From Spinacia oleracea (lineage: Eukaryota; Streptophyta; Magnoliopsida; Caryophyllales; Amaranthaceae), in assembly GCF_020520425.1 (NCBI RefSeq), contig NC_079490.1, positions 5,704,001-5,768,000 of the forward strand: a DNA stretch of 64,000 nt, in the 5' to 3' direction. The translations under genes were made by a program, and so were the position numbers. Below the pieces are notes generated by a model. That model did not search any database. It was not told the origin of the DNA and was given only the letters and a program-made list of their open reading frames with translations. Shown in pieces: positions 24,201-63,983 of this stretch (position 1 is its first letter; each line of letters starts with the position of its first letter).

Positions 24201-25788
24201 TCAGAAAAAACAGTCCATAAAAATAACTCAGAACGGAATCGAGGTAGTATATTGCTTCATCAGTTCATCACAAGTTCTTTTTTCTGTCCTCTACAACTGT
24301 TATAAGGACCTTTTGCCTCTACTTAACTCAATTTCAAATTATAATGACAAATTATGCAGGCTTTCCGAGAGTATTATCCTACAATGGAGGAGGAAATTGT
24401 CGTTCTAGAGTGCGTCTGGAAAACGGATAAATTTGTATTGGTAGAAACATCTAGTAAAGGCAAGATATCACAGCAAGGTGGGAGTTCAGAAACAGTACAA
24501 ACTCCGGGAACAACTATAAAGTACCAAAGTATTGGTGCTTTTATGGAAGGTAATACCCCACCCCCACTTTCTACCTCTGCATTATCCGTTCACTCATCCG
24601 TACACTTACACTCTTTTACAATTACCTTTACGGCCCGTTTGGTAGCCGGCCATAAATGGTGTCAATGGGAATGAATTTGTATGTAAATGTGTAAGGGAAA
24701 TCAATATTCATTCCCATGCTAATGCTAGTTCACTAAATTATTTCTTTTTCTTTATAAAATTTCATTACCATCCATTACCATTTAGGGAGTGGCATTAGGT
24801 GAAATGCAAATTTATGAAGAAAAGCATAAAGTTTGAGACAAAATTCCATTATCATGGACATTATGATGTTATTTTCTTGCCAAATAACACTTAGATTTAT
24901 TCCCGTTCCCACCATTTATTACCGGCTACCAAACGGGCCGTTAAGGTCGTATATGCTAGTTGCCGTTGCGCGCACAAGGTGTACAATAATTTTATTGTAC
25001 ACCCAGATAACTTTTACCCATTTTTTTGTAACTTTAACCTAGTTTTGATTAACTTTTATATTAGTAAAAAAAAAAAGTTGATAGAAGTGGTTAAATGATT
25101 AATATTATACATTATTAGTGGTTTTAAAGAAATATGTTTTACTGAAATGAAAAAATTTATCACTAAAAAATAGATAACTTTTACATATATAAGCCTAACT
25201 TTAAAACGTTTTGAGTTAACTTTTACTCCGGTGTACACTATTTATTGTACACCCTTTGTAAATAAGAATTTGTGTTTGTTGTTTGGGGCTGTGTCCCTCT
25301 TTGGCCTCAAATTATTCAAGTACAATGATTCTGTTTCACACTGAGATATATCCCTTTGTTTTTACTTGTTCATTTCTATAGATGATGAATATGATTCTGA
25401 GAAGGCTGATGTAAACGAGGGTGAAGAGAGTCTCTCAAAGAGGAAAAGACTTGAATCACAACCACCCATATCCAACGAAAATTTTCATCATCCTGAGCAA
25501 GTTCAAATGCTTTCAGTGCCAGAACACGGCTCAGAAAACGTGTTACAACCAACAGAAGACACCGTGGTCAGAGACAATGCTCTTTCTAGCTCGACTTCAA
25601 GCTTATCTAACCCTAATTCTATGTCGAAAAAGAGTGTGGCGTTCATATCTGTAAAGAAAACTGCTTCTTCAGCATCAAATACAGCATCTGTAACTCAGAT
25701 AGATGACAGTATAGACAAAGGGCATGATGATCAAGACAACACCCTTTTCAGTCTTTTTGGTCAGGAAGAAGTAAAATGTATTTTTTGA
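21213..25788 (+). CDS. NEPRO-like protein (nucleolus and neural progenitor protein family), 8 exons
   Basis: Exons are 21213-21356, 21470-21582, 22212-22290, 22629-22657, 22813-22906, 24154-24243, 24360-24549 and 25382-25788, giving 381 residues. The N-terminal 190 residues carry the NEPRO_N hallmark: ERLKSFLCQLQ, then IYKNKNQHRRCSYFQYLLKV, then RRD. A helical region follows (FIERLQGAARLLS, ILLDVVSVFNEVSSLAQKK). Then come REYYPTMEEE and a Ser/acidic tail ending SKKSVAFISVKK...FSLFGQEEVKCIF. Animal NEPRO is a nucleolar protein linked to RNase MRP/P assembly. The plant role is inferred by family only. The start was chosen at MGAQVELPEE because it matches the expected N-terminus and precedes the conserved block closely. 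Introns hold a Tourist and a Mutator-like MITE. A broken partial copy lies at 42.9-45.95 kb. Confidence 0.85.
24631..24940. mobile_element. Tourist-type (PIF/Harbinger) MITE in NEPRO-like intron 7
   Basis: The inverted ends cggcccgtttggtagccgg and ccggctaccaaacgggccg are flanked by TTA (24628-24630, 24941-24943). It is 310 bp and non-coding. It is absent from the equivalent intron of the pseudogene copy at 44.4-45.4 kb. Confidence 0.85.
24944..25274 (+). mobile_element. Mutator-like MITE with palindromic arms, copy 1
   Basis: Near each end there is a palindrome: 24979-25003 (ggtgtacaata / tattgtacacc) and 25230-25253. The right end taagaatttgtg is shared with copies at 54083-54408 and 63266-63908. 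The left end is blurred where the Tourist element abuts it. No clear target duplication is seen here, but the other two copies have 9-bp ones. Confidence 0.7.
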
Positions 25789-46650: not shown

Positions 46651-46878
46651 CTTGGGTGCATAATGTTCACGCTCGTTGTATACTCTATTTCTAAATGAAC
46701 ATATAGCTCAAATTTCAGTAACATATTGTTCATACAATTATACCGAAAGAACATATAGTTATAATCCAAAAGAACATATAAGATAATATTCCACTTATAT
46801 GTAAACATTGGAATCTTTCTCCATGTTCATTAGGGACATAATGAATATTCATTGAGATATTGTCACCCGGGTGTATAA
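46651..46878. mobile_element. CCCGGGTG-type MITE, diverged copy
   Basis: It begins with gggtgcataatgttcac and ends with gtcacccgggtgtat. The interior repeats agaacatatag motifs. It matches the better preserved element at 56774-57037. Confidence 0.55.
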
Positions 46879-46929
46879 TCTAAATTGCATAACCTTTATA
46901 TTTTAGGTGAAAGAACAGAGGCTGAAAAG

Positions 46930-54030: not shown

Positions 54031-54082
54031 CTATGTGTGAGGTTATAAATCTTATAATCAAGATATCAACACTAAATAAGAA

Positions 54083-54408
54083 CACAAATTCTTATTTACA
54101 TGAGGTGTACGATAAATATTGTACACCGAAGTTAAAGTTGACGTAAAATGCTTAAAAGTCACCATTATATATGTAAAAGTTATCTACTTTTTAGTAATAA
54201 ATTTTTTTATTTTAATCAAAAATATTTATTTAAAATCACTAATAATGTATAAAATTAATCATTTAACACGTTAAAATGTTTATCTACTAACTTTTTTTTA
54301 ATAGTATAAAAGTTAGAGAAAACTGAGTAAAAGTTAGAGAAAACTGAATTAAAGTTATGTTGGTGCACAATAAATTTATTGTACAACTTGTGTACGCAAG
54401 ACCTTTTG
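54083..54408 (-). mobile_element. Mutator-like MITE with palindromic arms, copy 2 (best preserved)
   Basis: It is 326 bp, flanked by the perfect 9-bp direct repeat aaataagaa (54074-54082, 54409-54417). The ends cacaaattcttattt and gcaagaccttttg are imperfect inverted repeats. Palindromes sit near both ends: 54104-54127 (ggtgtacgataaa / tattgtacacc) and about 54362-54387. Confidence 0.85.
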
Positions 54409-55049
54409 AAATAAGAAACTAGAAGTTCCAACATGTTTTGGAAAGAAAAAGAAAATGAACAAGCTTGAATAGTTGAATGATATCTACACGCTCTTTGCGT
54501 TCAAACTCTTTTAACCCAACTATAATCACCATCATACGTTCATCTTTAACCTTATTTGATACCTTCTTTAGGTAAAGATTAACAAAAGTAAATTTAACAC
54601 GTATTCGTATTATCACTCCATGCTAATTGTATTTGAGACTTTAAACAGGATTACTTGTAGTTTATAATGATGCAAACGGATTATAAAAACAACCATCATC
54701 TATACCTGGTCTATACCTAATCTATAAAAAAGAAAATCATAATTGATTGGATGACACGTGTCACCTCCATTCATCCATACATTTATTTTGTCTTTTTTTT
54801 TTCAATTGTTGTTGTTTGTTATACGATGTATTTTTCAATTTCAACTACTCTTCCTTCCTTCCACTCCATCTCACTTTTTAGCACTCAATATTAATTCACC
54901 AATTCTCACTAAAATCATAAACGCTTAATAAAATCAGCACTTTAAAAGACGAAATAAACAACCACTATATAATTGTCCGTTCTTTAAACAGGATCAACAA
55001 CTAGTTATAATTAGCAAGCAGCTCGTTAATATCGAGATTTTATTAAGTG

Positions 55050-56715: not shown

Positions 56716-56773
56716 AAGTGGAAATAAGGTTAATTGATCATTATTTTTCCTGAAATAAGCAAAATATGGTTTA

Positions 56774-57037
56774 TACACCCGGGTGCACAATGCTCACTGT
56801 GCACCCTGTTTTACAAAGAACATATAGTTCAAATACAAAGAACATATAGTTCAAATACAAAGAACATATTGTTCGTACCCAAAGAACATATAACCAATGA
56901 ACATATAGTTCAAATCCATAGAACATATATTTTAAATATTTCACTAGTACATGTACATTGAAATCGTTCTCAATGTTCATTAGATTTTCAATAAATGTTC
57001 AACAGGGTGCACAATGAGCACTGTGCACCCGGGTGTA
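56774..57037. mobile_element. MITE with ACACCCGGGTGCACAATG ends
   Basis: The left end is acacccgggtgcacaatg. The right end is cactgtgcacccgggtgta. Both are flanked by TA. Subterminal gtgcaccctgtt / aacagggtgcac extend the inverted repeat past 40 bp. The interior repeats agaacatatagttcaaa. A diverged relative is at 46651-46878. Confidence 0.8.
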
Positions 57038-57129
57038 TAATCCAAATTGCGTGAAATAAGTGAAAATAAGTGTATTTCATTGATCATATTATAGGTGTAT
57101 TTCATCGAATTGTGTCATATTATAAATCA

Positions 57130-63075: not shown

Positions 63076-63265
63076 ACCTTCGAGGTTAAAGCAATGGAAA
63101 AACACGAGTGATTGAAATGGCTTAGTTCAAAGAAGCCTGGTTCGGTTATTTACATCTGTTTTGGTAGCACATCAAGTTCCATAGCTCCTCAACTGCATGA
63201 GATTGCAATGGCTCTAGAGGCATCGGGAAAACACTTCATCTGGGTGGTGAGGAATAATAATAATA

Positions 63266-63908
63266 CAAAAGGTCTTGCTGCATACATAAGGTGTACAATA
63301 AATTTATTGTACACTTTTACCCAATTTTCTCAAATTTTTACCCAGATTTCTCTAATTTTTATATTATTAAAAATAAAAATTGATAGATAAAAATTTTAAA
63401 GGGTTGAATGATTAATTTTATATATTATTAGTGATGTTGAAGAAATATTTTTTTATTAAATTGAAAAATTTTATCACTAAAAACTAGATAACTTTTACAT
63501 ATACAAGGGTAACTTTTATGTATTTTACGTTAACTTTAACATCGGTGTACAATATTTATCGTACATCCTATGTAAGTACTCCCTCCGTATTTATTTAAGG
63601 GATACACTTGGACGGACACGGGTATTAAGAAGAAGAATTGAATGAAATAAAATAATAAAATAAGTGGGGTTGAGTAGATATTTCAATAAGTAAAACAAGT
63701 AAGGATCATGTCATACGGGGGGGTTGGGTGTAGTTATGAAATTATTTGTTTAATAGGGTGGTGGGACATATGATATATTAGATAGAGTATTTAATTAGAT
63801 GGTAGGGTTGATAAGTTATTAAAAATGACAAGTGTATCTCTTAAATAAATACGGCCGGAAAAGACAAGTGTATCCCTTAGACAAATACAGAGGGAGTAAG
63901 AATTTGTG
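63266..63908 (+). mobile_element. Mutator-like MITE with palindromic arms, copy 3 (with nested Stowaway)
   Basis: It starts caaaaggtcttgc and ends agaatttgtg, flanked by the 9-bp direct repeat ataataata (63257-63265, 63909-63917). A perfect 24-bp palindrome lies at 63291-63314 (half: gtgtacaataaa). A second imperfect one lies near 63545-63570. A Stowaway element is inserted at 63579-63896. Confidence 0.82.
63579..63896. mobile_element. Stowaway-type MITE nested in copy 3
   Basis: The ends ctccctccgtatttattta and acaaatacagagggag are flanked by TA. The right arm is duplicated in tandem (gacaagtgtatctctta near 63828, gacaagtgtatccctta near 63863). Confidence 0.8.

Positions 63909-63983
<75 letters not shown>
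63909..63983 (+). repeat. (ATA)n microsatellite
   Basis: About 24 units of ata/aat directly follow the MITE. The pre-insertion UGT sequence already carried aataataataat (Asn codons) at the target, so this looks like an expanded target-site copy. The frame after it reads on as Asn-Lys-Gly-Ala. Confidence 0.9.

Follow-up and report, generated by a model that had tools for sequence, protein, structure and literature searches.

A spinach MITE family with Mutator-type insertion, subterminal palindromes and 21-bp-phased motif arrays

The locus at 54083 to 54408 of the window (the whole stretch of 64,000 nucleotides analysed here, Spinacia oleracea contig NC_079490.1, positions 5,704,001 to 5,768,000) raises the question of how a short repeat with a palindrome close to each of its ends was inserted, and whether these palindromes function as hairpins or rather as sites for proteins. 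The first-pass annotation had recognised three related copies in the window. Their relationship is confirmed and lies far above chance (the palindrome and right-end controls both gave zero sites), and the coordinates given earlier hold for the copies at 54083 and 63266, while the copy placed at 24944-25274 in fact starts at 24966. The three belong to three different subfamilies, A (54083), B (24966) and C (63266), and subterminal palindromes near both ends are present in all three, as had been described. Inward of each palindrome lies an array of three TAACTTTTA motifs, all on one strand and spaced by 21 bp. These phased arrays had been missed; they are new and constitute the most interesting part of the element. 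The features of the three copies are listed below, where OLD denotes a lineage represented by the majority consensus of five diverged copies (L074, L085, L086, L090 and L092), and z refers to the folding of a palindrome as a DNA hairpin.

54083..54408, minus strand: full-length copy, subfamily A, with a 9-bp duplication on both sides
54074..54082, no strand: target duplication AAATAAGAA, first
54409..54417, no strand: target duplication AAATAAGAA, second
54396..54408, minus strand: left terminus CAAAAGGTCTTGC, 13 bp identical in the A, B, C and OLD consensuses
54083..54099, minus strand: right terminus GTAAATAAGAATTTGTG, the same in consensuses A, B and C, with one change in OLD
54362..54387, minus strand: left subterminal palindrome, imperfect, GTTGTACAATAAATTTATTGTGCACC, z -1.2
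54104..54127, minus strand: right subterminal palindrome GGTGTACAATATTTATCGTACACC, z -3.4 (stretch one base off)
54307..54357, minus strand: left array, TAACTTTWA three times, at 54349, 54328 and 54307, in 21-bp steps
54132..54182, minus strand: right array, motifs at 54174, 54153 (one mismatch) and 54132 (two mismatches to TAACTTTTA), in 21-bp steps
24966..25274, plus strand: second copy, subfamily B, without the first 9 bp of the left terminus (CAAAAGGTC) and without target duplication
24978..25003, plus strand: left palindrome of the second copy, z -5.6
25230..25253, plus strand: right palindrome of the second copy, z -3.7 (stretch one base off)
25008..25058, plus strand: left array of the second copy, motifs at 25008, 25029 and 25050
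25175..25225, plus strand: right array of the second copy, motifs at 25175, 25196 and 25217
63266..63908, plus strand: third copy, subfamily C, with duplication ATAATAATA and a nested element inside
63257-63265 and 63909-63917: target duplication ATAATAATA of the third copy, lying in an ATA microsatellite
63290..63315, plus strand: left palindrome of the third copy, z -6.0 (stretch one base off)
63544..63567, plus strand: right palindrome of the third copy
63489..63539, plus strand: right array of the third copy, motifs at 63489, 63510 and 63531
63579..63896, plus strand: nested MITE that we take to be Stowaway-like, TA-flanked (CTCCCTCCGT ... ACAGAGGGAG), splitting the right terminus of the third copy

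The two arrays of the 54083 copy lie on the same strand, and the left array of the third copy is decayed.

These copies are members of a family of approximately 320 bp with about 2,700 recognisable ends in the 894-Mb genome. With at most two mismatches, the left palindrome is found at 2,712 sites genome-wide (none for the reversed control) and the right ends at 1310 + 1416 sites (control likewise zero). The consensus measures 317-328 bp, the complete element reading CAAAAGGTCTTGC...GTAAATAAGAATTTGTG, which leaves no room for a transposase; short length, high copy number, defined ends and target duplications characterise the family as a MITE. Using the 54083 copy as query, the best 40 of 1760 candidates, the query itself included, were 94-100% identical, and three other copies at 100, 99 and 98% identity were among the matches listed. 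Identities of 98-100% suggest that subfamily A, apparently the youngest, has probably moved recently. A description of this family was not found in a literature search that included sequence strings, nor does it appear in the available sections of a spinach repeat survey, which reports 167 full-length MULE-MuDR elements and 445 unknown MITEs (PMC6337768).

The mode of insertion is indicated by the target duplications. Among the 109 of 118 loci that were scored (low-scoring copies, L009 and L060 were dropped), 47 are flanked by a perfect 9-bp duplication and 76 by one with at most one mismatch, while re-paired flanks, used as a control, gave means of 0.5 and 0.86, respectively, and duplications of 6-8 or 10-13 bp at the same tolerance occur in at most 4 of the 109. 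In a separate set, in which 67 of 68 loci could be given both ends when errors were allowed (the left end being spurious in L009 and L060), 33 of the 67 carry a perfect 9-bp duplication and 50 carry one within one mismatch, other lengths being rare. Four of the eight subfamily A loci examined have perfect duplications. Since most of the sampled copies have 9-bp duplications, insertion of the Mutator type, as proposed by the first-pass annotation, is well supported; about one third of the copies are without a recognisable duplication. Perfect duplications are 82% A+T and a clear consensus is absent. Both of the perfect duplications reported earlier from the window are present, but the one reading ataataata, ATAATAATA, proves nothing alone as it sits in an ATA microsatellite. 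Insert-free relatives of the insertion site exist for at least five copies (L003, L016, L029, L040 and L044); the joined flanks of L003, for example, align without interruption to 160 bp in a flank of L006, with 93% identity, and thus identify an empty site. Assignment to the hAT-type MITEs was rejected, an 8-bp duplication being perfect in only one of the 109 loci.

The terminal inverted repeats (TIRs) are weak, as had been noted, CAAAAGGTCTTGC and CACAAATTCTTAT being alike at 8 of 13 positions. Long TIRs, typical of MULEs, are absent, the match between the two ends being limited to these 8 of the 13 first positions; long TIRs are, according to the available part of a study on VANDAL elements, in which they are degenerate, not obligatory for MULEs (PMC10398659). 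The repeat is real and well supported, and is filed as a MITE with Mutator-type insertion. The filing ends there, with no named MULE family, because no transposase has been linked to it.

The left palindrome, GGTGTACAATAAATTTATTGTACACC, is composed of two 11-bp arms and a 4-bp spacer, and the right one, GGTGTACAATATTTATYGTACACC, has a 2-bp spacer. The earlier claim that the palindromes are conserved above the true ends is not borne out. In 62 of 68 aligned copies (six with truncated, ambiguous or nested ends were dropped) conservation is 0.981 and 0.982 at the ends and 0.956 in each palindrome. In a comparison copy by copy, from which none was dropped within L001-L068 and L085-L124, the lead varies by sample: the ends exceed the palindromes in one copy and fall below them in one among L001-L008, in 14 and 6 among L009-L038, in 14 and 13 among L039-L068, in 7 and 12 among L085-L104, and in 6 and 11 among L105-L124, which were chosen for a perfect left palindrome. 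When the consensuses of A, B, C and OLD are compared, the ends keep 29 of 30 columns and the palindromes 45 of 50, a difference that is not significant (p = 0.4), and a higher conservation of the ends is not proved. The interior, in contrast, is unchanged at 79 of 115 columns, and the palindromes are more conserved than this (p = 0.003), in agreement with the first-pass annotation. Their conservation above the interior suggests that they may well be recognition sites.

The arrays are regular in both phase and strand. In consensus B, plus-strand motifs are located at 52, 73 and 94 and at 218, 239 and 260, and in consensus C at 52, 73 and 94 and at 228, 249 and 270, while consensus A has five plus-strand motifs at no more than one mismatch and a weaker sixth where one would be expected, besides a single minus-strand motif. 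One of the three motifs may read TAACTTTAA. At a tolerance of one mismatch, 111 of the 118 copies carry on average 6.05 motifs on the plus strand, compared with 0.20 on the minus strand, and consecutive motifs lie exactly 21 bp apart in 365 cases. In two tests the motif was not chosen beforehand. TAACTTT is the commonest 7-mer in consensuses B and C, with six occurrences in each (a count reached by 0 of 2000 shuffles), and is found four times in consensus A (reached by 16 of 2000). Similarly, a lag of 21 is the best lag in all nine left arms tested, shuffles as good numbering 71 per 1000 for B, 74 for L103, 109 for L074 and 189 for L092. It is also the best in five of nine right arms (13 shuffles as good per 1000 for B, 26 for C, 55 for L103, 195 for A and 259 for L092), a different lag being best in L074, L085, L086 and L090; single-sequence tests of lag 21 are often not significant.

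Between the lineages A, B, C and OLD, 49 of 54 motif columns but only 24 of 48 array spacer columns are unchanged (p = 6e-6), with a slight bias in the motif's favour due to the setting of the motif columns on consensus B, and the motif frame is the most conserved of the 21 phase offsets (0.92, the lowest being 0.53). The strand and most of the phase are kept in the old copies L086, L090 and L092. Phased chains of at least three motifs were found 220 times in the 358 kb examined, always with a TGTACAATA-type half-site no more than 60 bp away; as most of this sequence consists of loci chosen for holding the MITE, the result says that the flanks contain no such chain.

One explanation for the palindromes, offered by the first-pass annotation, is that each end forms its own single-stranded hairpin, which is read by the transposase or the replication machinery. 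As single-stranded DNA, the perfect left palindromes of the copies at 24966 and 63266 do form good hairpins (z -5.6 and -6.0), and the right palindromes of the 54083 and 24966 copies fold too (z -3.4 and -3.7); five palindromes were counted here, the right one of the third copy being excluded as its stretch was 9 bases out of register, and three of the five stretches were one base off. The pairs themselves are however not maintained. In 108 of the 118 copies, one compensatory cell stands against 72 broken ones for the left hairpin, and one against 116 for the right, that is 2 against 188 for all hairpin pairs, in a test weakened by the fact that much of the breakage is perhaps decay after insertion; pairing of the two ends with each other is equally poor (1 compensatory against 99 broken, and 3 against 90). 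None of the five palindrome columns that differ between the lineages A, B, C and OLD is compensated, as judged by eye. In subfamily A the left palindrome contains the uncompensated GTTGTACAATA...GGTGCACAATA and its weak DNA hairpin (z -1.2) is equalled by 25 of 200 shuffles, yet it is this subfamily that has copies 98-100% identical and perfect duplications at half of its eight loci. Covariation and subfamily A make selection for hairpin pairing unlikely, and on covariation and folding hairpin function was rejected as the main explanation; that the palindromes act as hairpins at each end is very improbable.

As regards the arrays, the left one repeats a 21-bp unit exactly in tandem in subfamily C and almost exactly in subfamily A, for which reason the 21-bp spacing could be a functionless relic of minisatellite duplication in an ancestral element. 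The long 21-bp arrays of the same motif at larger genomic loci (see below) and the frequently non-significant lag tests on single sequences point in the same direction. A mere relic would nevertheless have to be reconciled with motif columns that are retained between lineages while the spacers change, with the persistence of strand and of most of the phase in the three old copies, and with the presence of an adjoining array at both palindromes, and this explanation is regarded as rather unlikely. The palindromes and arrays may also serve transcription or silencing rather than transposition, as sites for host transcription factors or as small-RNA precursors. This would agree with the folding of the whole element as RNA (z -3.7, against -2.2 as DNA) and with the anti-silencing role ascribed to VANDAL arrays in the accessible parts of two studies (PMC5735166, PMC10398659), but RNA pairing is expected regardless in an element with inverted half-sites, and such a role appears improbable.

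Given that the hairpins do poorly, each palindrome is read here as a pair of half-sites at which a protein dimer would bind duplex DNA. The interpretation we favour, and consider fairly probable, is that of a MITE family of Mutator type in which the palindromes and the arrays are sites for the transposase or a partner protein; for the binding itself, we rely on conservation, phase and strand. According to this model the MITE would be mobilised in trans by a transposase recognising the terminal 13-17 bp plus the subterminal palindromes, the latter acting as double-stranded dimer sites in which two TGTACAATA half-sites face each other, with no extrusion. The three TAACTTTTA motifs by each palindrome, 21 bp or two helical turns apart, would line up several protein molecules along the same face of the helix, and the protein bound there might be either a further subunit of the transposase or an accessory factor like the VANC protein of the VANDAL elements in Arabidopsis. 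The outside-in order at each end, terminus, palindrome and phased array, would then represent a compact nucleoprotein assembly site, and the remainder of the element filler. Observations that run counter to the model include the weak and short TIRs for a MULE and the phase of a second element in the window, which is 22 bp and not 21. What was a vague palindromic MITE is by this model given a testable cis-anatomy (terminus, dimer site, helically phased array), which is kept across lineages and recurs with different letters in the second element. If confirmed, it would provide a compact model of MULE protein assembly on short non-autonomous elements and raise the question whether MITEs borrow anti-silencing proteins.

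The second MITE-like element has the same design in an unrelated sequence, without a BLASTN match to the first family at 1e-4.

56760..57051, plus strand: second MITE-like element, inverted arms of 53 nt, 89% complementary
56751-56759 and 57052-57060: its perfect 9-bp duplication TGAAATAAG, seen in this one copy only
56781..56806, plus strand: its left palindrome GGGTGCACAATGCTCACTGTGCACCC
57005..57030, plus strand: its right palindrome GGGTGCACAATGAGCACTGTGCACCC
56818..56933, plus strand: its array of GAACATATAGTTC-like motifs, GAACATA at 56818, 56840, 56862 and 56884 (22-bp phase), then at 56899 and 56921

Its palindromes are built as GGGTGCACAATG-CT-CACTGTGCACCC and GGGTGCACAATG-AG-CACTGTGCACCC, and its half-site GGTGCACAAT, which is similar to GGTGTACAAT in the first family, is identical to the inner half-site on the left of subfamily A. 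A diverged relative of this element, 71% identical over 218 bp and with decayed palindromes, is present at 46694-46888.

Mutator-type MITEs are reportedly known from rice, as MDM-1 and MDM-2. In layout, the nearest known systems are Muta1 of the mosquito and VANDAL21 of Arabidopsis. Muta1, a MULE of Aedes aegypti, is described in the available text as generating 8-9 bp duplications and as carrying a palindromic motif at the terminus, with several short subterminal repeats behind it, and its non-autonomous derivatives share the TIR, often in truncated form, with a varying number of repeats (PMC5225508). The spinach family is similar in its duplications and in the combination of a palindrome with short subterminal repeats. 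However, Muta1 has TIRs of 145 bp, an imperfect palindrome of 10 bp and nine repeats of 12 bp separated by 3-4 bp (PMC5225508), whereas the spinach family has TIRs of 13-17 bp, palindromes of 24-26 bp and three 9-bp motifs at a 21-bp phase, and its arrays are direct, not inverted, at the two ends. VANDAL21/Hi, as far as covered by the available portions of two papers, shares with the spinach family degenerate TIRs, and has a VANC protein that binds a 9-base motif whose copies are arrayed in a single orientation, VANDAL arrays having evolved by tandem repeats; VANDALs differ in bearing genes and in the motif itself (PMC5735166, PMC10398659). The dense array of a short motif on one strand of noncoding DNA (on average 6.05 plus against 0.20 minus per copy in 111 of 118 copies) is a feature shared with the VANDAL/VANC type. 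The main text of PMC5735166 uses neither spacing nor any word in palindrom-. The Mutator MITEs of sugar beet, a related plant, are likewise short and non-coding, and the largest family in the part of that work considered has 497 copies, compared to about 2,700 ends in the spinach family (PMC12804786); its main text is without the words palindrom-, subterminal and hairpin.

As to a partner element, neither an autonomous element nor a binding protein was found, and the ends of the family occur in none of six MULE loci (6 kb each) taken from the best 150 of 1,960 MULE domain candidates. Longer arrays of the motif at 21 bp were found at 221 forward + 221 reverse places, against 8 + 8 for the reversed pattern. 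Among the 100 places listed, the last of which are on C2, 84 belong to 12 clusters located on C1 and C2, eight of which span 9-36 kb, and the other 16 are, by our own sorting, eight MITE left arms with a fourth unit, six occurrences of another 21-bp repeat and two single places. The clusters contain long TAACTTTNA arrays at 21-bp phase, as follows.

C1:32584480-32620618: long array
C1:92178471-92209519: long array
C2:64333197-64342400: long array
Nine further clusters: long arrays

By eye, no match to PF10551 (MULE, best 150 of 1,960), PF03108 (MuDR, best 150 of 655) or DUF1985 (149 matches, best 150 of 893) lies inside the 12 clusters. None of the four C1 clusters is bounded by a perfect MITE right end among the 100 listed, all of which lie on C1 no further than 111.7 Mb, and the right end nearest to a C1 cluster, at 92173854, belongs to a MITE of ordinary length 4-5 kb off. 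The clusters may be a partner element or an unrelated array. A possible, though doubtful, extension of the favoured model is that the arrays are, besides the transposase sites, landing sites phased by two helical turns for a VANC-like anti-silencing or assembly protein from a distant partner element. The MITEs would then parasitise both the transposase of the partner and its defence against silencing, the long-array loci of up to 36 kb would be partner candidates, and the second element of the window would parallel this case with a motif of its own.

Some individual copies deviate from the common form. Twelve sites at which the right palindrome is followed by non-MITE sequence were considered separately, and the ten examined are MITE variants or damaged copies. 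L111 (C1:12541191-12541365) is 175 bp long owing to an internal deletion and retains its two ends and two palindromes along with a perfect 9-bp duplication. It was discarded as a minimal mobile form and is probably a post-insertion deletion, since no second full-length match was found among the best 40 of 2,445 candidates. L051 and L067 (C1:129605525-129606170) form a tandem pair in the order duplication-element-duplication-element-duplication, every duplication being TATTAGTTT, which suggests unequal exchange or replicative tandem formation. At 54073-54098 of the window, AAATAAGAA is the reverse complement of a stretch in the adjoining end of the element and thereby creates an extra 26-bp near-palindrome over the junction, probably by chance. 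Finally, L107 is inserted inside the palindrome of an older, diverged relative, with its duplication ATGAATTTA in the palindrome centre.
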